From: Candidatus Agathobaculum merdipullorum
Lineage (GTDB): Bacteria > Bacillota > Clostridia > Oscillospirales > Butyricicoccaceae
DNA length: 64,000 nucleotides
Direction of reading: 5' to 3'
Assembly: GCA_019115185.1 (NCBI GenBank)
Contig: DXDZ01000008.1
Coordinates: 1 to 64,000 of the forward strand
The notes below the pieces were generated by a model. The model did not search any database and was not told the DNA's origin. It saw only the letters and a program-made list of their open reading frames with translations. The translations under genes were made by a program, and so were the position numbers. Positions 6,132 through 17,169 of the stretch are shown here, piece by piece; position 1 is the first letter of the stretch; every line of letters starts with the position of its first letter.

Positions 6132-6656
6132 TTATCCAATTTTCGGGAACAGCTCCTGATCGATCACTGCATCCAGCGTCATACCGGCATAGGCGATCTG
6201 GGCAAGACCATCAATGAAGCGGCCAACCGCAGCAAGGAGTACCGAAATATTGTCTGCCACAAAAGGAATGATCTTCTCCAGCTCGAGTGAACCGTCAAGC
6301 AGCGTGTTGTGCTTGAGGTAAATCTGTCCCGCCTGCTCGTAATAGCCGAACGCCCCCAGCGCGCAGAAGTCGTTGCAATACGCACATGCGCGTCGCAGCT
6401 GATTGGCATGGGTATCCGGTGCGCCCTGAAACAGCGTAACGAAGAATTGCAGCAAGCCGCTGTCCTCGCCCGGCAGCTGAAGTGGAATAAAACACACCTC
6501 GATCACAACGTCCTTAGCGACCTTGCCCTGCCGCATTGCCTCACAGCGCAGCAGCGTGGGCGCGCCCTCCTTGCGCATCACCTCGGCACGAAAGCCGTTC
6601 TGATTCAAAACCTCAGCCATGCAGGCGAGAATCTGCTCTTGTTGTTCGATCTTCAT
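6132..6656 (-). CDS. hypothetical protein, YbjN-like fold suspected
   Basis: 175-codon ORF; ATGA overlap with the purD stop suggests operon membership. Confidence 0.65.
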   Translation of the reverse strand: MKIEQQEQILACMAEVLNQNGFRAEVMRKEGAPTLLRCEAMRQGKVAKDVVIEVCFIPLQLPGEDSGLLQFFVTLFQGAPDTHANQLRRACAYCNDFCALGAFGYYEQAGQIYLKHNTLLDGSLELEKIIPFVADNISVLLAAVGRFIDGLAQIAYAGMTLDAVIDQELFPKIG

Positions 6657-7909
6657 CCCTTTTTCACTCCAATATCCGTACGGTAATGTGCTTTGTCAAA
6701 ATGAATCTTCTTGACATCCGCGTATGCTTTGATAATGGCTTCGTCCAGCGTGGGCGCTGTCGCAGTCACGCCAAGCACACGGCCACCACTCGTGACAAAT
6801 GCACCGTCCTTAACCGCCGTGCCCGCGTGGAACACAAACGAATCGGTCACATCATCCAAACCGGTGATAACCTTACCCTTCTCATAAGCCTTCGGATAGC
6901 CGCCCGAAGCCATGCATACACAGCAAGCGGCATTATCCGCCCACTTAATTTCAATTTCGTCCAGCTTTTCGTCGATCACTGCGTTGAAAATATCAAACAG
7001 ATCGGTTTCCAAACGGGACAATACTGCCTGCGTCTCCGGGTCACCGAAACGCGCATTGTATTCGATCACCTTGGGACCCTTGGGAGTCAGCATCAGGCCG
7101 AAATACAGCACGCCCTTGAACGGACGGCCCTCCTGCGCCATAGCCGCCACGGTGGGCTTGAAAATGGTCTCCATGCAGGTTTTGGCGACATCCTCGGTAT
7201 AGAACCGCGAGGGCGAGAACGCACCCATACCGCCCGTGTTCGGGCCTTCATCGTGGTCATACGCACGCTTATGGTCCTGCGCCGACGGCATAGTCTTGAG
7301 GTGTTTACCGTCCACGAACGCAAGGACGGATACCTCAGGCCCGGTCAGGAACTCCTCAATGACGACGCGCGCACCGGCACCGCCAAAGGCATGGCCGTCG
7401 ATTGCGTCCTTGACTGCGGCAATGGCGTCCTCCTCGGTCATGGCAACCGTCACGCCTTTGCCAAGCGCCAAGCCGTCCGCTTTGACCACGATCGGCGCGC
7501 CCTGCTCCTTGATATAGGCAATTGCCGCCGCCGAATCCTCGAAAACAGCATAACCCGCAGTCGGAATGCCGTACTTTTTCATCAATTCCTTCGCAAAGGA
7601 CTTGGAGCCTTCGATCACTGCCGCGTTTTTCCGCGGACCGAAGGCGCGGATGCCCGCCTCTTCCAGCGCGTCCACCATGCCGAGCGCCAGCGGGTCATCC
7701 GGCGCGACCATCACGAGGTCGGGCTTGTGCTCCTTGGCAAACGCCACCACGCCGTCGATATCGGTTGCCTTGATGTCCACGCACTCCGCTTCCTGCGCAA
7801 TGCCGCCGTTGCCCGGTGCACACCAGATATGGTCCACCTTGGGGCTTTTCTTCAATGTATGAACGATGGCGTGCTCTCGCCCGCCGCCGCCGATCACCAT
7901 TACTTTCAT
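6653..7909 (-). CDS. purD: phosphoribosylamine--glycine ligase
   Basis: MKVMVIGGGGREHAIVHTLKKSPKVDHIWCAPGNGGIA and EYNARFGDPETQAVLSRL. Confidence 0.97.
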   Translation of the reverse strand: MKVMVIGGGGREHAIVHTLKKSPKVDHIWCAPGNGGIAQEAECVDIKATDIDGVVAFAKEHKPDLVMVAPDDPLALGMVDALEEAGIRAFGPRKNAAVIEGSKSFAKELMKKYGIPTAGYAVFEDSAAAIAYIKEQGAPIVVKADGLALGKGVTVAMTEEDAIAAVKDAIDGHAFGGAGARVVIEEFLTGPEVSVLAFVDGKHLKTMPSAQDHKRAYDHDEGPNTGGMGAFSPSRFYTEDVAKTCMETIFKPTVAAMAQEGRPFKGVLYFGLMLTPKGPKVIEYNARFGDPETQAVLSRLETDLFDIFNAVIDEKLDEIEIKWADNAACCVCMASGGYPKAYEKGKVITGLDDVTDSFVFHAGTAVKDGAFVTSGGRVLGVTATAPTLDEAIIKAYADVKKIHFDKAHYRTDIGVKKG

Positions 7910-8445
7910 GGTTTTTCTCCCTCCGTACGGATGTATTCTTTCTGCGCGCGGAACGTATCCGCCAGCAGCGCAATGTACCCGAGCACTGTCAGAGTATTGA
8001 CTACGGTCACGATCAAGGACAGCGCCATATCGTTGAGCCACCCGGGCGCCATGAGCAACGTCAGGATAAAACCTGCGCTCCATACGACGAAAATCGCCCA
8101 TTCGATCAGTGTTCCGCGCCCTGCGTCCCGCATCTGCGTGATATATGCCAACAGCAGCATGCAGCCGGTGAGCAGCAACGGCACCAGAGAGGCATATTCC
8201 AGCACCATGCGCAGCAGTCCCGGCGGCAACACAGTCGGTCCACAGACCACTTCAAAGCCGATGCACACATCAGCTGCGATGCTTGCGCGCAAAAACCAGC
8301 GCGATACCTGTTGCAAAGACAGCGCGCCCGCCGAAATCAGCGCATAGGCTACGATGTTCAGCATCCAGTTGCTCTGCAAAACCAAACCGAGCAGCAGCCC
8401 GCCTGCAATAGCCATATAGGCATAATAGCCGCGTATCAGTTTCAT
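7906..8445 (-). CDS. hypothetical multi-spanning membrane protein in pur operon
   Basis: Several hydrophobic helices; ATGA overlaps at both ends. Confidence 0.75.
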   Translation of the reverse strand: MKLIRGYYAYMAIAGGLLLGLVLQSNWMLNIVAYALISAGALSLQQVSRWFLRASIAADVCIGFEVVCGPTVLPPGLLRMVLEYASLVPLLLTGCMLLLAYITQMRDAGRGTLIEWAIFVVWSAGFILTLLMAPGWLNDMALSLIVTVVNTLTVLGYIALLADTFRAQKEYIRTEGEKP

Positions 8446-9026
8446 TTCTCCACCTGCTCTTTCAGCAGCGTTTTGGCACGCCACAGATAGCGTACCATCC
8501 AAACATAGGACACGATCGCCGCGAGCAGAGCAGTGATCTCGAGCACTATCTGCACCCGGAACAGCAGCGTGTATTGGCCTTGTGCGGCGGACCGTTCCGC
8601 CTCCCCTACAAATAGGGGCAGAAAGCCCATCATGGAAGCGCCGCGCTGGATGAGCGTGGACAGCGACCATGTCCGGCCGATGCGCAGCGTCTGCTCAGAT
8701 GCGTCCGCAGCGCGCAATTTACGGTCCAAACTGCGCTGCATGGGCAGATAGATCAGTAGAAACAGCAGGTTGACCAGCATATTGCCGATCCAATCAGGAC
8801 TGATGCCGTTTGGCAGCAGAACGGTCAGCACACAGCCAACCAACGCAGCTCCCACGGCAACCAGGCAGCGAAGCCGCCATGCAGCCCATGCATTCATCAC
8901 ATAGCATACCGCCATGAGCGCTGCCCCTGCCTGCGCGCCCACGATGCCAATGCAGGCCGCGGCTGCGACCTGCACAATCAGCGCTGCCAGCGTCCATTTG
9001 GCCGCAGACGCAGCATTTTCACGCAT
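8442..9026 (-). CDS. hypothetical multi-spanning membrane protein in pur operon
   Basis: Hydrophobic ORF MRENAASAAKWTLAALIVQVAAAACIGIV...; starts in TGATG overlap with the preceding gene. Confidence 0.75.
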   Translation of the reverse strand: MRENAASAAKWTLAALIVQVAAAACIGIVGAQAGAALMAVCYVMNAWAAWRLRCLVAVGAALVGCVLTVLLPNGISPDWIGNMLVNLLFLLIYLPMQRSLDRKLRAADASEQTLRIGRTWSLSTLIQRGASMMGFLPLFVGEAERSAAQGQYTLLFRVQIVLEITALLAAIVSYVWMVRYLWRAKTLLKEQVEK

Positions 9027-10201
9027 CAATGGTGGAACAGGCGCATGCCGGTAAACGCCATCACGATGCCGTATTTGTTGGCGGTTTCGATCACGTTATC
9101 GTCGCGGATCGAGCCGCCCGGCTGCACAATATACTGCACGCCCGACTTGCGCGCGCGCTCAACGTTATCACCAAACGGGAAGAACGCATCCGAACCGACG
9201 GTCACGCCCGTGTTTTTCGCAATCCACGCCTTCTTTTCCTCGGCGGTCAGCACTTCCGGCTTGACCTTAAAGGTATTCTGCCAAACGCCGTCCGCCAGCA
9301 CATCCTCGTACTCGTCCGATATATATACATCGATCGCGTTATCGCGGTCAGGACGGCGGATGCCGTCCACAAACTGCAAGCCCAGCACCTTGGGATGCTG
9401 CCGCAGGAACCAGTTGTCCGCCTTATTGCCCGCCAGTCGCGTGCAGTGGATACGGCTCTGCTGGCCTGCGCCTACACCGATGGTCATGCCATCCTTGACA
9501 TAGCAAACCGAGTTGGACTGCGTGTACTTGAGCGTAATGAGCGATAGGATCATATCGTGCTTAGCACTCTCGGGCAGTTCCTTGTTATCGGTAACGATAT
9601 TGTTCAGCAATGCTTCGCTGATCTCATAATCGTTATAACCCTGCTCAAAGCGAATGCCGAAAATATCGCGCTGCTCGATCGGCTTCGGCACATAGTCCGG
9701 ATCGATCTTGACCACGTTGTAGCTACCCTTGCGCTTGGTTTTGAGGATTTCGAGCGCCTCATCCGTATAGCCCGGCGCAATGATGCCGTCGGACACCTCA
9801 TGCGCGAGATACGCCGCGGTATCCGCATCGCACACATCGGAGAGCGCCGCCCAGTCGCCGTAAGAGCACAGGCGGTCTGCACCACGCGCACGGATATAGG
9901 CGCACGCGATGGGCGACAGCTCGTGGTCGGCCTCGACGAAGTACATCTGCTTCTCAACATCGGTCAGCGGCTTACCAAGCGCCGCGCCCGCAGGAGACAC
10001 ATGCTTGAAGGAAGCCGCAGCAGGCATACCAGTCGCCTTTTTCAGCGCCTTGACCAGCTGCCACGAGTTAAATGCGTCGCAAAAGTTGATATACCCCGGC
10101 TTGCCGTTCAAGACCTCGATGGGCAACTCGCCCTCGGTCATAAAGATGCGCGCCGGCTTCTGATTGGGGTTACAGCCGTATTTGAGTGCCAGCTCCTTCA
10201 T
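9026..10201 (-). CDS. stand-alone AICAR formyltransferase (PurH C-terminal-type, no IMP cyclohydrolase domain)
   Basis: MKELALKYGCNPNQKPARIFM..., AAASFKHVSPAGAALG, SNSVCYVKDGMTIGVGAGQQSRIHCTRLAG, SDAFFPFGDNVERARKSGVQYIVQPGGSIRDDNVI. Confidence 0.93.
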   Translation of the reverse strand: MKELALKYGCNPNQKPARIFMTEGELPIEVLNGKPGYINFCDAFNSWQLVKALKKATGMPAAASFKHVSPAGAALGKPLTDVEKQMYFVEADHELSPIACAYIRARGADRLCSYGDWAALSDVCDADTAAYLAHEVSDGIIAPGYTDEALEILKTKRKGSYNVVKIDPDYVPKPIEQRDIFGIRFEQGYNDYEISEALLNNIVTDNKELPESAKHDMILSLITLKYTQSNSVCYVKDGMTIGVGAGQQSRIHCTRLAGNKADNWFLRQHPKVLGLQFVDGIRRPDRDNAIDVYISDEYEDVLADGVWQNTFKVKPEVLTAEEKKAWIAKNTGVTVGSDAFFPFGDNVERARKSGVQYIVQPGGSIRDDNVIETANKYGIVMAFTGMRLFHH

Positions 10202-10923
10202 GCGTTCTTGCCCTCCTCGTGCTTATTGCGAATCTCCTGCCAATATGCACCGGTTTCAAGATCGATGTAGCGCACAAACAGTGCCACCTTGTTCTGCTCA
10301 TTCATGCTCGACCAAAGCATTTCGGTGAACTGCTTGATGGGCTTTTCGATGCGGATGCACTTTGGCTCACCGCGGAACGGCGGCAGCGGGTCGCCGTCAC
10401 ACTGGTAGGTATGGATGAAGTGGCCCAGACCCGGTACCGGCTTGTCATATTCATAGAAAAAGCGCTTGTTAGAGGTGCGGTCGGACGTAAAGTTCTTGAG
10501 GATGGACAGGCTGTAAGAGCCATCCTCATTGATGACGCCCGAAATGCGCGAGGTGTAGTTAGGCGCATCCGGCTCAAACTGACGGGTGCGAAGCGCATCG
10601 ATATAGCTCTTGCCCTGCTTCAGGTACTCGCAGATCGTGTCGGTCTGGTCGCCGTTGGTGACAACCAGCTTGCCTTCACACTGGCGTACCGGATGGTAAA
10701 TAATCAGCGAGGGGTCGGTCATCTTGGACGGATCATAAGCCTGCGTGCAGATGCCGTCCTCGGTCTCCACAAACACACGGTTGCGGCTGTTCTCCGAACG
10801 GCCCATGATGAAATACGCCACCACATTCTGCTTGTTATCCAGCGTGCGGCCAAAGATGATGCCGCGACCCGGATACGCATTGCTCATCAGCTCGTTGCTG
10901 ATATTGAACACATTCTTGCTCAT
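10198..10923 (-). CDS. PurO-like (archaeal-type) IMP cyclohydrolase
   Basis: MSKNVFNISNELMSNAYPGRGIIFGRTLDNKQNVVAYFIMGRSENSRNRVF resembles the IMP_cyclohyd/PurO family; ATGA overlap with the AICAR formyltransferase. Confidence 0.85.
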   Translation of the reverse strand: MSKNVFNISNELMSNAYPGRGIIFGRTLDNKQNVVAYFIMGRSENSRNRVFVETEDGICTQAYDPSKMTDPSLIIYHPVRQCEGKLVVTNGDQTDTICEYLKQGKSYIDALRTRQFEPDAPNYTSRISGVINEDGSYSLSILKNFTSDRTSNKRFFYEYDKPVPGLGHFIHTYQCDGDPLPPFRGEPKCIRIEKPIKQFTEMLWSSMNEQNKVALFVRYIDLETGAYWQEIRNKHEEGKNA

Positions 10924-10940
10924 AACGCTTTCCTTCCTCC

Positions 10941-11564
10941 TTACTTTCTGGCGACCCATGCGCCGTGAACGCTCAGGCGTCCTGCGCAAAAGTCGCTGAC
11001 GGCCTGCGGCAGAAGAATCCACTCGGCCTCACGCATCACACGTTTCTGCAGCGTCTCCGCTGTGTCTCCTTCCTCCACTTCGACCGCTTTTTGTGCAATG
11101 ATTGCGCCACCGTCCACCACTTCAGAGACAAAATGGACAGTCGCGCCAGTCACCTTCACCCCTTTGGCGAGAGCGGCCTCATGCACGCGCAGGCCGTAAT
11201 ACCCTGCCCCGCAAAACGACGGGATCAGCGACGGATGCACATTGATGATGCGGTTTTCGTAGCGGCTACAAAAGCTGTCCGGCAGCACGGTCATAAAGCC
11301 CGCCAGCACGATCAGCCCGATCTCGTATTCCTCCAAAAGCGCGGTCAGCGCCGCATCGTAATCCTCCGCACTGTCAAAATCGCGGCGGCGCAGCACAGCA
11401 GACGGAATAGAAGCCTTCGCCGCACGTTCGAGTGCAAACGCCTCCGGATTGGAGGAAATCACCAGCCGGATGCTGCCGTTTTCGATCTTGCCTGCGGCCT
11501 GCGCGTCGATCAGCGCCTGCAAATTCGTGCCGCCGCCCGAAACCAAAACTGCGATGTTCGTCAT
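10941..11564 (-). CDS. purN: phosphoribosylglycinamide formyltransferase
   Basis: MTNIAVLVSGGGTNLQALIDA, LAGFMTVLP, NVHPSLIPSF, GATVHFVSEVVDGGAIIAQ. Confidence 0.96.
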   Translation of the reverse strand: MTNIAVLVSGGGTNLQALIDAQAAGKIENGSIRLVISSNPEAFALERAAKASIPSAVLRRRDFDSAEDYDAALTALLEEYEIGLIVLAGFMTVLPDSFCSRYENRIINVHPSLIPSFCGAGYYGLRVHEAALAKGVKVTGATVHFVSEVVDGGAIIAQKAVEVEEGDTAETLQKRVMREAEWILLPQAVSDFCAGRLSVHGAWVARK

Positions 11565-11582
11565 AACTGATTCTCCACTCTT

Positions 11583-12620
11583 TTACTCGAGCACAACGCC
11601 CTTTTCACCAGAGACGCACTCGCCAATGACGTATGCCTTCTCGCCCGCAGCCGAAATTGCGGCTATCGCGCGGGAAGCGTCCTCCGCCGCGACGGCAAGC
11701 ACCAGGCCCGCGCCCATGTTGAAGGTGTTGTACATATCGCGCTCCGGGATCTTGCCGGTCTTGGCAATCAGATCGAACACCGGCGGCACCGGCATTGCGC
11801 TCTTTTCAATCTTCGCATAGATGCCCTCCGGCAGCATGCGCGGCACATTCTCATAGAAGCCGCCGCCCGTGATGTGGCTGATGCCCTTAACCTCGACCTT
11901 GCCCATCAGGCCCTGAATGGCCTTGACGTAAATCTTGGTCGGGGTGAGCAGCTCCTCACCCAGCGTCTTGCCGAACTCGTCAATGTAGCGGCGCACAGAC
12001 TTTTCATTGATGCCCAGCGTCTTGCGCACCAGAGAATAGCCGTTGGAGTGCACACCCGAAGAAGCAACGCCAATCAGCGCGTCGCCCGGGCGGATGTTCG
12101 TGCCGTCGATCATCTTCTCTTTATCGACCATACCGACCGAGAAGCCCGCCATATCGTACTCGTCTTCGGGATAAAAGCCGGGCATTTCAGCGGTCTCGCC
12201 GCCGATCAGCGCGCAGCCTGCCTGACGGCAGCCCTCCGCGATACCGGAAACCATCTGCGCGATCTTGGCCGGGTGATTCTTGCCGACCGCAATGTAATCG
12301 AGGAAAAACAGCGGCTGCGCACCGCAGCAGGCAATATCGTTGACGCACATCGCTACGCAGTCGATGCCGACCGTGTCGTGCTTATCCATCAAAAAGGCCA
12401 GCTTGAGCTTAGTGCCCACGCCGTCCGTACCGGAAACCAGAATGGGATCAGCCATGCCCTTAAAGTCCGGACGGAACAGGCCGCCGAAGCCGCCGAGCGT
12501 ACCCATAACGCCCTTGGTAAAGGTCGATTCGACCATCGGCTTCATCAGCTTGACCGCCTCATAGCCGGCGGTTACGTCTACACCGGCTGCCTTGTAGCTT
12601 TCAGAACGGCTCTCACTCAT
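11583..12620 (-). CDS. purM: phosphoribosylformylglycinamidine cyclo-ligase
   Basis: [66 protein letters not shown]. Confidence 0.97.
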
Positions 12621-12656
12621 AGTAATACTCCTTCGTCGTTTTTTGAACGGAACGGC

Positions 12657-14078
12657 TTATTCCTTGCCGTTCCAGCAATAGGTACAAACCTTGTCGCGGT
12701 CCAGTCCGATGGCCTCCAGCAGGCCGTCAAGCGACTGATAGCCCAACGAACTGAAACCAAACTTTTCGCAAATGGTTTTCAGCATGCACTGGCCGCGCTC
12801 GGTGTTGGCATCCGCATATTCTTCCAGATGCTTCTGGCCCTCGTCGCCCTCCAGCTCCTGCACAATGCGGCGGGCAAGCAGCTCCATCTCGGAATTCGAG
12901 GAGGAAAAGTTCAGATACTTGCAGCCGTACATAATCGGCGGGCAGGCCGAGCGCATATGCACTTCCTTCGCGCCCGACTCATACAGAAATTCCACCGTCT
13001 CGCGCAGCTGTGTACCGCGCACGATGGAATCGTCCACAAACAGCAGCTTTTTGCCCTCGATCAGTTCAGGCACCGGGATCTGCTTCATCTTGGCAACCTG
13101 ATTGCGGACCTTCTGATTGGCCGGCATGAACGAACGCGGCCAAGTCGGCGTATATTTCACGAACGGACGGGCAAACGGCTTGCCGCATTCGTTGGCGTAG
13201 CCGATCGCGTGCGGCACGCCAGAATCCGGCACGCCTGCGATGTAGTCCACATCTCCGGCAAGGCCGCGCTTCTGATCGTCCTGCGCCATGATTGCGCCGT
13301 TGCGATAGCGCATAACCTCGACGTTGACGCCTTCATAGTTGGAATTGGGGTAGCCGTAATAAGTCCACAGGAAAGAGCAGATCTTCATCTCCTTGCCCGC
13401 GGGCGAGAGCGTTTCAAAACCCTCCTCGGTGACTTTAACGATCTCACGCGGCCCCAGCTCATAGGCATCCTCGTAGCCGAGCTTGTGGTACGCAAAGGAC
13501 TCAAACGAAACGCAGCAGCCGTCCTCATTCCGGCCGATCAGCACCGGCAAGCGGCCCAATCGGTCGCGCGCGGCGATGATACCGTCTTTGGTCAGCACCA
13601 GCACGGTCAGCGAGCCGTCGATCAGCTCCTGCGCATGCAGAATACCGGAAACCAAATCGTCCTTCTGGTTGATGAGCGCCGCGGCCAACTCAGTGGAGTT
13701 GACCTTGCCCGAGCTCATCGCCATGAACTGATGACCATGGTCGGAAAAATAACGGGAAACCAGTTCTTCCGCATTGTTGATGATGCCGACCGTAGTCAGC
13801 GCGTACAGGCCAAGGTGCGAGCGCACAAGCAGCGGCTGCGGATCGGTGTCGCTGATGCAGCCGATGCCGCTGCAACCGGAAAAGTCCGGCAGATCTTTCT
13901 CAAACTTGGTACGGAACGGGGTGTTTTCGATGCTGTGGATCTGACGCTGGAAGCCGCGTTCCTTGTCATACAGAATCATGCCGCCGCGGCGTGTACCCAG
14001 ATGCGAGTGATAGTCCACACCGAAGAAAATATCCAGCACGCAATCCTGCTTGGAGACTACGCCGAAAAATCCTCCCAT
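12657..14078 (-). CDS. amidophosphoribosyltransferase paralog lacking the N-terminal Cys nucleophile
   Basis: PurF-like throughout (YIAGVPDSGVPHAIGYA, LLFVDDSIVRGTQLRETVEFL) but begins MGGFFGVVSKQ where canonical mature PurF begins CGVFGI. Confidence 0.88.
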   Translation of the reverse strand: MGGFFGVVSKQDCVLDIFFGVDYHSHLGTRRGGMILYDKERGFQRQIHSIENTPFRTKFEKDLPDFSGCSGIGCISDTDPQPLLVRSHLGLYALTTVGIINNAEELVSRYFSDHGHQFMAMSSGKVNSTELAAALINQKDDLVSGILHAQELIDGSLTVLVLTKDGIIAARDRLGRLPVLIGRNEDGCCVSFESFAYHKLGYEDAYELGPREIVKVTEEGFETLSPAGKEMKICSFLWTYYGYPNSNYEGVNVEVMRYRNGAIMAQDDQKRGLAGDVDYIAGVPDSGVPHAIGYANECGKPFARPFVKYTPTWPRSFMPANQKVRNQVAKMKQIPVPELIEGKKLLFVDDSIVRGTQLRETVEFLYESGAKEVHMRSACPPIMYGCKYLNFSSSNSEMELLARRIVQELEGDEGQKHLEEYADANTERGQCMLKTICEKFGFSSLGYQSLDGLLEAIGLDRDKVCTYCWNGKE

Positions 14079-14081
14079 TTG

Positions 14082-15557
14082 TTACTCCTTGTCTTTATTC
14101 CCGCTGAGCGGGATTTCGTTTTCAAACATATTCTTTTCCGCCTGTTCGGGCACCGGAATCGGATATTCGCCCGAGAAGCAGGCGTCACAAAAGCCCAGTT
14201 TACAACCGACCGCAATCTTGCGCGCCGCTTCGAGCGACAGGAAGCCCAAGCTGTCCACGCCGATGATCTCGCGCATTTCCTCGACCGTGCGGCCATGCGC
14301 CAAAAGCTGGCTGCGCTCCGGGATATCGGTGCCAAAGAAGCACGGGTGACGGAACGGCGGCGCGGAGATACGCATGTGCACCTCGGCCGCGCCCGCGTCG
14401 CGCAGCAGCTTCACCAGCCGCGCACAGGTCGTGCCGCGCACGATCGAATCGTCAACCATAATCACGCGCTTGCCCTCGACCGCCGTGCGCAGGGCATTGA
14501 GCTTTAAGCGCACCGAGCGCTCGCGCTTATCCTGCCCCGGCTGGATAAATGTACGGGCGATATAGCGGTTTTTAATCAGGCCCACGCCATATGGAATGCC
14601 GGAAAACTTCGCATAACCGATCGCGGCGGGGATACCGGAATCCGGCACGCCGATGACCACATCCGCGCCGACCGGATGCTCGATGGACAGGTACTTGCCG
14701 GCTTCCTGACGCGCCAGCTCAACGCTGGCGCCGTCGATGATCGAGTCCGGACGAGCAAAGTAGATATACTCGAACACACAGGCTGTGCTCTTGCACTGCA
14801 CATCGCAGTGCATCGAGCGCAGCTCGCCGTTTTCGACCACACAGACCTCGCCAGGCTCTACGTCTCGGACAAAAGTCGCGCCCAGCGCGTCGAGCGCGCA
14901 GGTCTCGGAAGCGAAGATATACGCGCCGTCCAACAGACCGATGCACAGCGGGCGGAACCCATGCGGGTCGCGCGCCGCAATCAGTTTACGCGGGCTCATC
15001 ACAACGAGCGAATATGCGCCCTCGATGATGCCCATGGTGTTTTTGACCGCCTCTTCGATGCTGCCGCACTTGAGGCGCTCGTTGACGATGGTGTACACCA
15101 ACACCTCGGTATCGTTCGAGGAGCGGAAAATGCCGCCGTTCAACTCAATGCGGCGACGCAGTTCGCCCGCGTTGACCAGATTACCATTGTGTGCTACGGC
15201 AAGGTTGCCCTTGACGTGCGTAATAGCGATCGGCTGCGCGTTTTCGCGCGACTGCTTACCGGTCGTCGAATAGCGAACGTGACCGACCGCCATCGATCCG
15301 GGCATGCTGTCCAGAATTTGCTGGTTGAACACCTGACTGACCAAGCCAACGTCCTTGTGGCAACGGATAACGCCGCGATTGTTGACCGCGATGCCCGCCG
15401 CCTCCTGTCCGCGGTGCTGAAGTGCAAACAGCGCAACATATGCTTCGTGCGCGGCCGCAATCTCCTTGCCCTCGGGTGCGGCGATGCCGAATACGCCGCA
15501 CTCCTCGTGTACCTTGTCAAATGGGGTTTTGCTTTGCTTTAGAATACGATATTTCAT
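14082..15557 (-). CDS. purF: amidophosphoribosyltransferase (canonical)
   Basis: Propeptide then EECGVFGIAAPEGKE; ALQHRGQEAAGI; VIMVDDSIVRGTTCARLV. Confidence 0.97.
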   Translation of the reverse strand: MKYRILKQSKTPFDKVHEECGVFGIAAPEGKEIAAAHEAYVALFALQHRGQEAAGIAVNNRGVIRCHKDVGLVSQVFNQQILDSMPGSMAVGHVRYSTTGKQSRENAQPIAITHVKGNLAVAHNGNLVNAGELRRRIELNGGIFRSSNDTEVLVYTIVNERLKCGSIEEAVKNTMGIIEGAYSLVVMSPRKLIAARDPHGFRPLCIGLLDGAYIFASETCALDALGATFVRDVEPGEVCVVENGELRSMHCDVQCKSTACVFEYIYFARPDSIIDGASVELARQEAGKYLSIEHPVGADVVIGVPDSGIPAAIGYAKFSGIPYGVGLIKNRYIARTFIQPGQDKRERSVRLKLNALRTAVEGKRVIMVDDSIVRGTTCARLVKLLRDAGAAEVHMRISAPPFRHPCFFGTDIPERSQLLAHGRTVEEMREIIGVDSLGFLSLEAARKIAVGCKLGFCDACFSGEYPIPVPEQAEKNMFENEIPLSGNKDKE

Positions 15558-15582
15558 GGATTTGCCTTTTCTGCCGGGGGTG

Positions 15583-16299
15583 TTACTTGCTCATCACGCG
15601 CTTCATGATTTCCTGGTACGCTTCTTCTACGCCGCCCAGATCACGACGGAAGCGGTCCTTATCCAGCTTTTCGCCGGTGGTCTTGTCCCACAGGCGGCAG
15701 GTGTCCGGGCTGATTTCGTCAGCCAGCACGATGGTACCGTCCGCGGTCTTGCCGAACTCGAGCTTAAAGTCAACAAGCGTGACGTTGAGCGTATCAAAAT
15801 ACTGCTTCATCACTTCGTTGACCTTGAAGGCCATGGACTTAATCTGCTCGATTTCCTCGCGGGTGGCGAGCTTGAGAGCAATTGCGTGGTAAGCGTTCAT
15901 GAGCGGGTCGCCCAGATCGTCGTTTTTGTAGGAGAATTCGATGGTCGGCTCGTCAAACACGATGCCTTCGTTTACGCCGTAACGCTTGGCAAACGAACAG
16001 GCCGAGATATTGCGGATGATGACTTCGAGCGGTACGATGGACACCTTCTTCACCACGGTTTCGCGGTCGGAAAGCTGCTCGACGAAATGCGTCGGCACGC
16101 CCTGCTGCTCAAGCAGCTGGAACATATGATTGCTCATCACGTTGTTGATGACGCCCTTGCCGGCAATCGTACCCTTCTTTTCGCCGTTGAACGCAGTCGC
16201 GTCATCCTTGTAGTCCACGATCACCAGATTCGCGTCGTCGGTTGCAAAAACCTTCTTAGCCTTGCCTTCGTAGAGCTGTTCTTTCTTTTCCATGTCCAT
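15583..16299 (-). CDS. purC: phosphoribosylaminoimidazole-succinocarboxamide synthase
   Basis: [68 protein letters not shown]. Confidence 0.97.
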
Positions 16300-16401: not shown

Positions 16402-16893
16402 TTAGGCAAACTGTGCCTTGATTTTTTCGTCCTTGGCCATGACTTCGCTTGCCATGTCCGCCTTGAACTGCGCGAGCTTGTCCGCAAGCGCGTCGTCCGA
16501 CAGTGCGATCATCTGCGCGGCAAGGATGGCAGCGTTGTCCGCGCCGTCGATTGCCACCGTCGCCACCGGGATGCCCTTGGGCATCTGCACGATAGAGAGC
16601 AGGCTGTCCATGCCGCCCATTACGCTCGTGCCCATCGGCACGCCGATCACCGGCAGAGTCGTGTTGGCCGCCAGCACGCCGCCCAGATGGGCCGCCTTGC
16701 CTGCCGCCGCGATGATGACACCAAAGCCGTCGTCCTTTGCGTTTTTAGCCAGCTGCTCCGCCACCGCCGGCGTGCGGTGTGCAGAGCAAATGCGCACTTC
16801 GGTCGGGATATCAAACGATTTCAGGCGATCAATGCACTTTTCCATCACCTTCAGGTCGCTGTCTGAGCCCATGATGACCAGAACTTTTTTCAT
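16402..16893 (-). CDS. purE: N5-carboxyaminoimidazole ribonucleotide mutase
   Basis: KKVLVIMGSDSDLKVMEKC, RICSAHRTPA, IIAAAGKAAHLGGVLAANTTLPVIGVPM. ATG 16893 with GAGGAGG SD. Confidence 0.97.
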   Translation of the reverse strand: MKKVLVIMGSDSDLKVMEKCIDRLKSFDIPTEVRICSAHRTPAVAEQLAKNAKDDGFGVIIAAAGKAAHLGGVLAANTTLPVIGVPMGTSVMGGMDSLLSIVQMPKGIPVATVAIDGADNAAILAAQMIALSDDALADKLAQFKADMASEVMAKDEKIKAQFA

Positions 16894-16907
16894 CTGCAAT
16901 TCCTCCT

Positions 16908-16945
16908 CAAAAAAACAAATGAGGACACGGATATACCCGTGTCCT
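16908..16945 (-). terminator. intrinsic terminator/attenuator in the purE leader
   Basis: Minus strand AGGACACGG-GTATAT-CCGTGTCCT followed by CATTTGTTTTTTT, about 15 nt upstream of the purE start. Confidence 0.8.
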
Positions 16946-16953
16946 GTATGTGC

Positions 16954-17037
16954 TCAATATGCTGCACCAATGCCCGAAATTATGCACGAATGCCCGGACA
17001 TTTCCGCTGTTTGCATCAAGAAAACACTGCCGGTCAT
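16954..17037 (-). CDS. candidate leader peptide (27 aa) in the purE leader
   Basis: ATG preceded by AAAGAGGTG; encodes MTGSVFLMQTAEMSGHSCIISGIGAAY and stops 8 nt before the terminator stem. Confidence 0.45.
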   Translation of the reverse strand: MTGSVFLMQTAEMSGHSCIISGIGAAY

Positions 17038-17081
17038 ATGCGCACCTCTTTCTCTCAGGCGGTCGGTGAAGATACACTATT

Positions 17082-17110
17082 ATTTTATCGAATACCGCTG
17101 TGCATTGCAA
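17082..17110 (-). promoter_or_regulatory. sigmaA-type promoter of the pur operon
   Basis: TTGCAA (17110-17105) - 17 bp - TAAAAT (17087-17082) on the minus strand. Confidence 0.7.
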
Positions 17111-17169
17111 GCATTTTACATGGTTTTTTCGTCTTTTGTGCAAATGCCCAAAGATATCCGTCCCGCGCG

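Follow-up and report, generated by a model that had tools for sequence, protein, structure and literature searches.

What controls purine synthesis in Agathobaculum, if not one of the known purine regulators? The question is raised by the leader of the purE operon in the window, that is, in the whole analysed stretch of 64,000 nucleotides from Candidatus Agathobaculum merdipullorum, where a short upstream open reading frame (uORF) and an intrinsic terminator lie between the promoter and purE. The leader resembles a purine version of the pyrimidine-nucleotide switch of E. coli, and many Oscillospirales have the same arrangement before their purE gene.

The whole leader reads on the minus strand of the window. 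The promoter TTGCAA-N17-TAAAAT (17082–17110, with the -35 box TTGCAA at 17110–17105 and TAAAAT ending at 17082), reported in the initial annotation with its strand unstated, scores 9/12, and two promoter-like sites were counted in the region versus 0.5 in shuffled sequences. It is followed by a Shine–Dalgarno (SD) sequence at 17043–17050 (AAGAGGTG; in most relatives AAAGAGGTG) and by a uORF of 27 codons plus TGA at 16954–17037 (ATG at 17037, TGA at 16956–16954), with the predicted peptide MTGSVFLMQTAEMSGHSCIISGIGAAY. Two sites matching a pause consensus lie within the uORF, site 1 at 16983–16994 (GGCATTCGTGC followed by A; pause position C16984, next base A16983) and site 2 at 16963–16974 (GGCATTGGTGC followed by A; pause position C16964, next base A16963). 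The intrinsic terminator hairpin (16922–16945, AGGACACGGGTATATCCGTGTCCT) starts 8 nt past the uORF stop; folded alone, it reaches -16.2 kcal/mol (z -4.4), and two-sided compensatory change was detected at two of its pairs among relatives. Next come the T-rich tail of the terminator (16909–16921, CATTTGTTTTTTT), whose end is separated from the purE ATG by about 15 nt, and the purE SD sequence AGGAGGA (16901–16907). The uORF with its SD sequence, the exact spacing of the terminator and the end of the T-tract are thus as initially annotated.

The first gene of the operon, purE, occupies positions 16402–16893 (ATG at 16893; PF00731, 1.5e-62), and the remaining pur operon (6653–16299, minus strand) comprises purC, purF, a PurF-like gene, purM, purN, the genes of IMP cyclohydrolase (PF07826) and AICAR transformylase, two membrane-type ORFs, and purD. 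Since these pur genes and those of IMP cyclohydrolase and AICAR transformylase are located downstream, the purE leader fronts most of the purine pathway. The second PurF-like gene (12657–14078, minus strand) lies directly after purF, and its amidotransferase and phosphoribosyltransferase domains are weak.

Known purine regulators and conservation of the layout

A search of the window leader against Rfam gave no match, with only chance matches at a relaxed E-value, which agrees with the earlier statement that conserved cores of the known purine riboswitches could not be found; covariance models of the purine, ZTP, and PRPP riboswitches gave no aptamer match, and no Rfam match was obtained at 20 loci with a uORF of this type. 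The pur operon of B. subtilis is likewise a purE-first operon with leader termination, but it is controlled by a purine riboswitch and PurR, while in the genome containing the window neither the purine riboswitch RF00167 nor, at 90% completeness, the PurR domain PuR_N (PF09182) was found. The latter domain had no match in 22 of the 25 genomes of the genus. In the open literature, outside which most subscription journals lie, no publication on a purE uORF of this type was found.

Another group of purE leaders in the same order, which also carry a leader terminator, contains the ZTP riboswitch. The corresponding model RF01750 works on control leaders and was found in 12 of the leaders tested, whereas none of the 20 uORF-type loci tested had it; judging from the sequences, the ZTP riboswitch and the uORF attenuator look like alternative devices before purE. 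In Breznakia pachnodae (L186), a purine riboswitch before purE is followed by a further uORF and a terminator-like hairpin, an arrangement of two devices in series.

Each of the 24 other Agathobaculum genomes included in a DNA search contained the leader. The uORF was compared in 23 leaders, those of the window and 22 relatives, leaving out L024, which seems to be disrupted, and L022, a duplicate of L021. It is kept in 23/23 leaders with the same SD sequence and the same frame, and the indels are in frame. Genus-wide conservation in the leader covers the -10 region and the TGTAAAATGCTTGCAAT stretch. The encoded peptide follows the pattern MTGSVFL...GHSCxxSGIGAAx with a variable middle part, the V-F-L codons varying synonymously. 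Site 1 is conserved in 22 of the 23 leaders, and the GG and TGCA of site 2 are fixed in all 23; the reading frame differs between the two sites, and GGT GCA has fixed wobble bases next to an Ala codon that is free to vary. The distance from the uORF stop to purE is 48–62 nt within the genus, with the terminator in between.

Two leaders of the genus deviate from this picture. The most diverged one, L025 (G002 contig 2), has lost site 1, has GGGCACTCGTGCA as site 2, and forms a strong local hairpin, CACGAG...CUCGUG, in place of a long-range pairing. In L024 (G010 contig 39), the leader terminator and purE are separated by additional sequence that contains a small ORF, and the leader of this species seems to be disrupted or displaced.

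The order of parts, namely SD sequence, short ORF, stop, hairpin with T tail, and purE, recurs in other genera of the family and the order, where the sequences themselves are unrelated. The layout, taken as an ORF of 14–45 codons that has an SD match of at least 5 and whose stop lies between -4 and +20 relative to the hairpin, was found in 48 of the 112 Oscillospirales purE leaders that lack the ZTP motif and remained after deduplication, while 1.6 of 53 shuffled leaders (about 3%) are expected by chance; since the leaders share ancestry to some degree and are not fully independent by descent, shuffle-based figures of this kind overstate independence. Related leaders include some from Butyricicoccus and Intestinibacillus. 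The distance from stop to hairpin in the uORF-type leaders ranges from -4 to 16 nt, with a median of 5. A parallel pyrimidine system at pyrB leaders was rejected, since the layout was present in 0 of 30 pyrB upstream regions of the same order.

The uORF peptides, conserved inside a genus, do not align between genera, and a peptide profile search of the order returned true matches inside the genus only, the weak matches L043–L060 not being upstream of purE. This pattern argues against the peptide sequence as the whole explanation. The leader-peptide attenuator proposed initially is upheld in part, as a leader-ORF attenuator, given the conserved uORF and the lack of an Rfam hit. On the basis of the sequence comparisons, a uORF-dependent transcription attenuator very probably precedes purE. 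The initial annotation spoke of translational attenuation, whereas the position of an intrinsic terminator right after the uORF stop most simply fits transcription attenuation by a translating ribosome.

Pause consensus within the uORF

One short pattern recurs towards the end of the uORF, and the hypothesis was fixed before the wider leader sample was collected. All patterns of the form XY-N(3–10)-XYZ, 8,192 gapped motifs in total, were scanned in 47 independent uORF regions, and GG-N6-TGC ranked first, being present in 27 of the 47 leaders versus 5.5 expected (z 9.5); the runner-up (z 6.5) overlaps it. The enrichment became weaker when the gap was shifted, and single-base variants of GG-N6-TGC occurred about as often as expected by chance. 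By its bases and spacing, the motif corresponds to the extended elemental pause consensus of RNA polymerase, G-11G-10T-3G-2Y-1G+1 (PMC6062546).

Of 33 sites, 30 have a purine directly after TGC, compared with 98 of 227 in the coding DNA of the same loci (Fisher p 1e-7). Split accordingly, the count for the 47 uORF regions is 24 for GGN6TGCR versus 3.2 expected and 3 for GGN6TGCY versus 2.5 expected, and among the leaders collected after the hypothesis GGN6TGCR was present in 14/31 versus 2.2 expected. The exact GGN6TGCR is absent from about half of the uORF-type leaders. While the E. coli consensus prefers G at +1, A and G are used equally in the purE leaders. The controls were near chance, with 3/47 for antisense, 2/47 for reversed, and 1/47 for upstream sequences, and 1/14 for ZTP leaders. 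Over the whole window, 124 occurrences were counted versus 126 expected, so that the motif marks the leader and not the genome. Coding DNA contains 0.22 GGN6TGC per 88 nt, which is above shuffled sequences; therefore, judged by this stricter standard, GGN6TGC is enriched about 3-fold, and about 7-fold when the purine is included.

The wobble bases within the motif are also biased: T occupies position -3 in 23 of 28 cases, and the Ala wobble base is a purine in 23 of 28 cases versus 51% in purE genes. When codons were redrawn synonymously, a mean of 11.7 was obtained and the observed 23 was never reached in 1000 draws. Such constraint on wobble positions points to the bases. Over the order, the motif has a reading-frame bias of 23:7:3, which indicates that a peptide effect of G-x-x-A may contribute. 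Taken as a whole, the motif statistics make it probable that GG-N6-TGC acts as a polymerase pause. No sensor was named in the initial annotation; the pause consensus inside the uORF proved to be the strongest conserved element.

Two other candidates for the conserved object were rejected. A mini-hairpin, GCA-N4-UGC, fails in several genera (e.g., GGGUCAAAUUGCA and GGUGAAAUUGCA) that still fit GGN6TGC, and the NusG-type pause motif TTNTTT is not enriched (16 versus 13.8). The latter distinguishes the purE uORFs from B. subtilis tlrB and vmlR, which also combine a uORF with a programmed polymerase pause in a Firmicute leader, but respond to antibiotics via pausing and ribosome stalling (PMC6851288, PMC9226507).

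A tripeptide of the form V/I-F-L/F recurs in 7 of the 47 purE uORFs versus 1.9 expected (Agathobaculum, L061, L067, L068, L070, L080, and L114). In Agathobaculum, V-F-L is invariant at the peptide level with synonymous codons, a feature that the pause model does not account for.

Proposed mechanism and alternative explanations

The best explanation of these observations would be a transcription attenuator of the pyrBI/pyrE type acting for purines, to which we give an even chance. Transcription would start about 180 nt 5' of purE, and the polymerase would meet consensus pauses inside the uORF, two of them in this leader, each of which would last until a purine nucleotide is added, namely A in this leader and either A or G in relatives (G in L103 and L232, for example). 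With ATP and GTP plentiful, the polymerase would leave fast and outrun the ribosome, the hairpin would form, and transcription would end; with ATP and GTP scarce, the polymerase would wait while the uORF ribosome closes up and reaches the stop codon, and the ribosome located there, 8 nt from the hairpin, would block it, so that purE–purD would be transcribed. The sequences show the uORF, the terminator, their geometry and conservation, and the enrichment of the pause consensus with a purine at +1; the pausing, its response to purine NTPs, and the masking of the hairpin by the ribosome are steps that we infer.

Two features of the pyrBI and pyrE leaders, a leader ORF ending at or across the terminator and an intrinsic terminator before the first structural gene, are present here, and the orfE–pyrE stop is also located about 8 nt before the pyrE terminator. 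The purE leader further resembles these systems in having a translated leader ORF, a pause in the leader (putative here), and a ribosome that would come near enough to mask the intrinsic terminator before nucleotide-pathway genes (PMC5021804, PMC4824070, PMC9291695). It differs in that the operon is a purine one and belongs to Firmicutes, that a purine occupies +1 of the pause, that the G-11G-10/T-3G-2C-1 consensus is exact, and that the terminator follows the uORF, whereas the pyrBI terminator lies inside the leader ORF. The likeness suggests that the purE leader works as pyrBI/pyrE do and makes it a candidate member of the NTP-sensing attenuators.

Individual steps have precedents. Nucleotide-specific pausing at pyrBI was reported by Donahue and Turnbough (1994, as cited in PMC9291695), and coupling of transcription and translation has been described for the same operon (PMC5021804). 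Bypass of a consensus pause drops when the next NTP, GTP, is lowered (PMC6336406), and a terminator is repressed by a ribosome that occupies a stop codon just a few bp ahead of it (PMC4824070). Bacillota have been classed as runaway transcribers (PMC13323073); therefore, close coupling cannot be assumed in them, and a ribosome-based switch would need a strong pause. A strong pause that restores coupling fits the model.

As purines are both the product of the operon and the next NTP at the pause sites, the simplest feedback would be one in which low ATP/GTP switches the pur operon on, and sensing of purine NTPs by the attenuator appears to be nearly an even proposition. The broader reading is more tentative and falls somewhat short of even: across the order, purines would be sensed by RNA polymerase itself and not by a riboswitch, with purine-+1 pauses in the leader ORF gating the terminator via the trailing ribosome, in Firmicutes with supposedly weak coupling. 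If true, a large group of gut Firmicutes would control purine synthesis by nucleotide-sensitive pausing and leader translation, which would mirror the way E. coli regulates its pyrimidine genes and would take the place of PurR or of a purine or ZTP riboswitch. The leaders would then also offer a natural case of the elemental pause consensus being retained by evolution base by base, and a test of ribosomal terminator control in bacteria whose polymerase normally outruns ribosomes.

The his, trp, and leu attenuators share with the purE leader a leader peptide, a synchronising pause (putative here), and a terminator, and their pauses have been proposed to synchronise translation with transcription (PMC9291695). 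By the same logic, the purE pause could merely synchronise polymerase and ribosome, with the signal sensed by the ribosome as the charging of tRNA, for example, Gly, Ser, or Cys; in the uORFs, Ser (9.7%), Gly (9.5%), Phe (9.1%), and Cys (5.8%) are abundant. The purine synthesis pathway uses glycine as a substrate. However, the purE uORFs have no control codons, neither a single-codon run nor a common codon set, and RNAalifold found no conserved antiterminator pairing with the terminator arms in the 23 genus leaders. Moreover, the distance between leader stop and terminator exceeds 20 bp in amino-acid attenuators (PMC4824070) but is just -4 to 16 nt in the purE leaders, and tRNA sensing would leave the use of A or G at +1, instead of the consensus G, unaccounted for. 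We regard this explanation as unlikely.

An arrest peptide is improbable as well. The nascent chain, with V-F-L near its start and G-x-x-A near its end, would stall the ribosome on a purine-related molecule and thereby mask the terminator, in agreement with the genus-conserved peptide and its synonymous V-F-L codons, with G-x-x-A as the top gapped dipeptide of the 47 uORFs (24 versus 9.2), and with the frame bias of the motif. Nevertheless, G-x-x-A is the only feature that the peptides share across genera and is partly explained by the DNA motif, which is the stronger signal (z 9.5 versus 5.3), has constrained wobble bases, and is out of the preferred frame in 8 leaders, site 1 of the window being one such case.

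It is very improbable that the uORF is a re-initiation aid for purE translation or a passive spacer before a terminator of constant efficiency. Leader ORFs have been proposed to boost translation of the next gene via re-initiation (PMC4833913), but here purE has its own strong SD sequence, the terminator lies within the 48–62 nt between it and the uORF stop in the genus, and the pause consensus would be left unexplained.

Least probable of all is an undescribed RNA aptamer overlapping the uORF and controlling the terminator, because, although the whole window leader folds better than shuffled sequences (z -2.98) and most members of the genus could form a pairing between a 5' CACCGA and the UCGGUG of site 2, that long-range pairing was rejected for its lack of two-sided covariation and its absence from L025, the leader without its terminator has an ordinary fold, on average hardly stabler than shuffled sequences (z from -2.0 to +0.9 in 13 leaders), no Rfam match was obtained and no structure shared between genera was noticed, and, when covariation of the genus leaders was checked as proposed initially, two-sided compensatory change was seen only in the terminator hairpin and not 5' of it.

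Sequence elements near the promoter

The sequence GGGCAnnnnTGCA was rejected as a genome-wide operator, since the only clear pair in this genome is located in the purE leader. A sequence resembling the leader repeat, GGACATTCGTGCAATTTGTCC, was found in a related genus (L047, G148 contig 1), where it precedes an unrelated promoter, and may be due to chance.

Another element, TTTGGGCATTTGCACAAAA, is located 5' of the -35 box (17134–17152, minus strand) and is kept at this place, before the purE promoter, in the majority of the Agathobaculum loci that were checked. It is nearly unique in the genome, with one exact site and one site with two mismatches, and in related genera it is resembled by TTTTGGGCAAGTATACGATTTTT and TTTTTGTGGATTTACACGATTTTT. 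It may be an operator for an unknown purine regulator.
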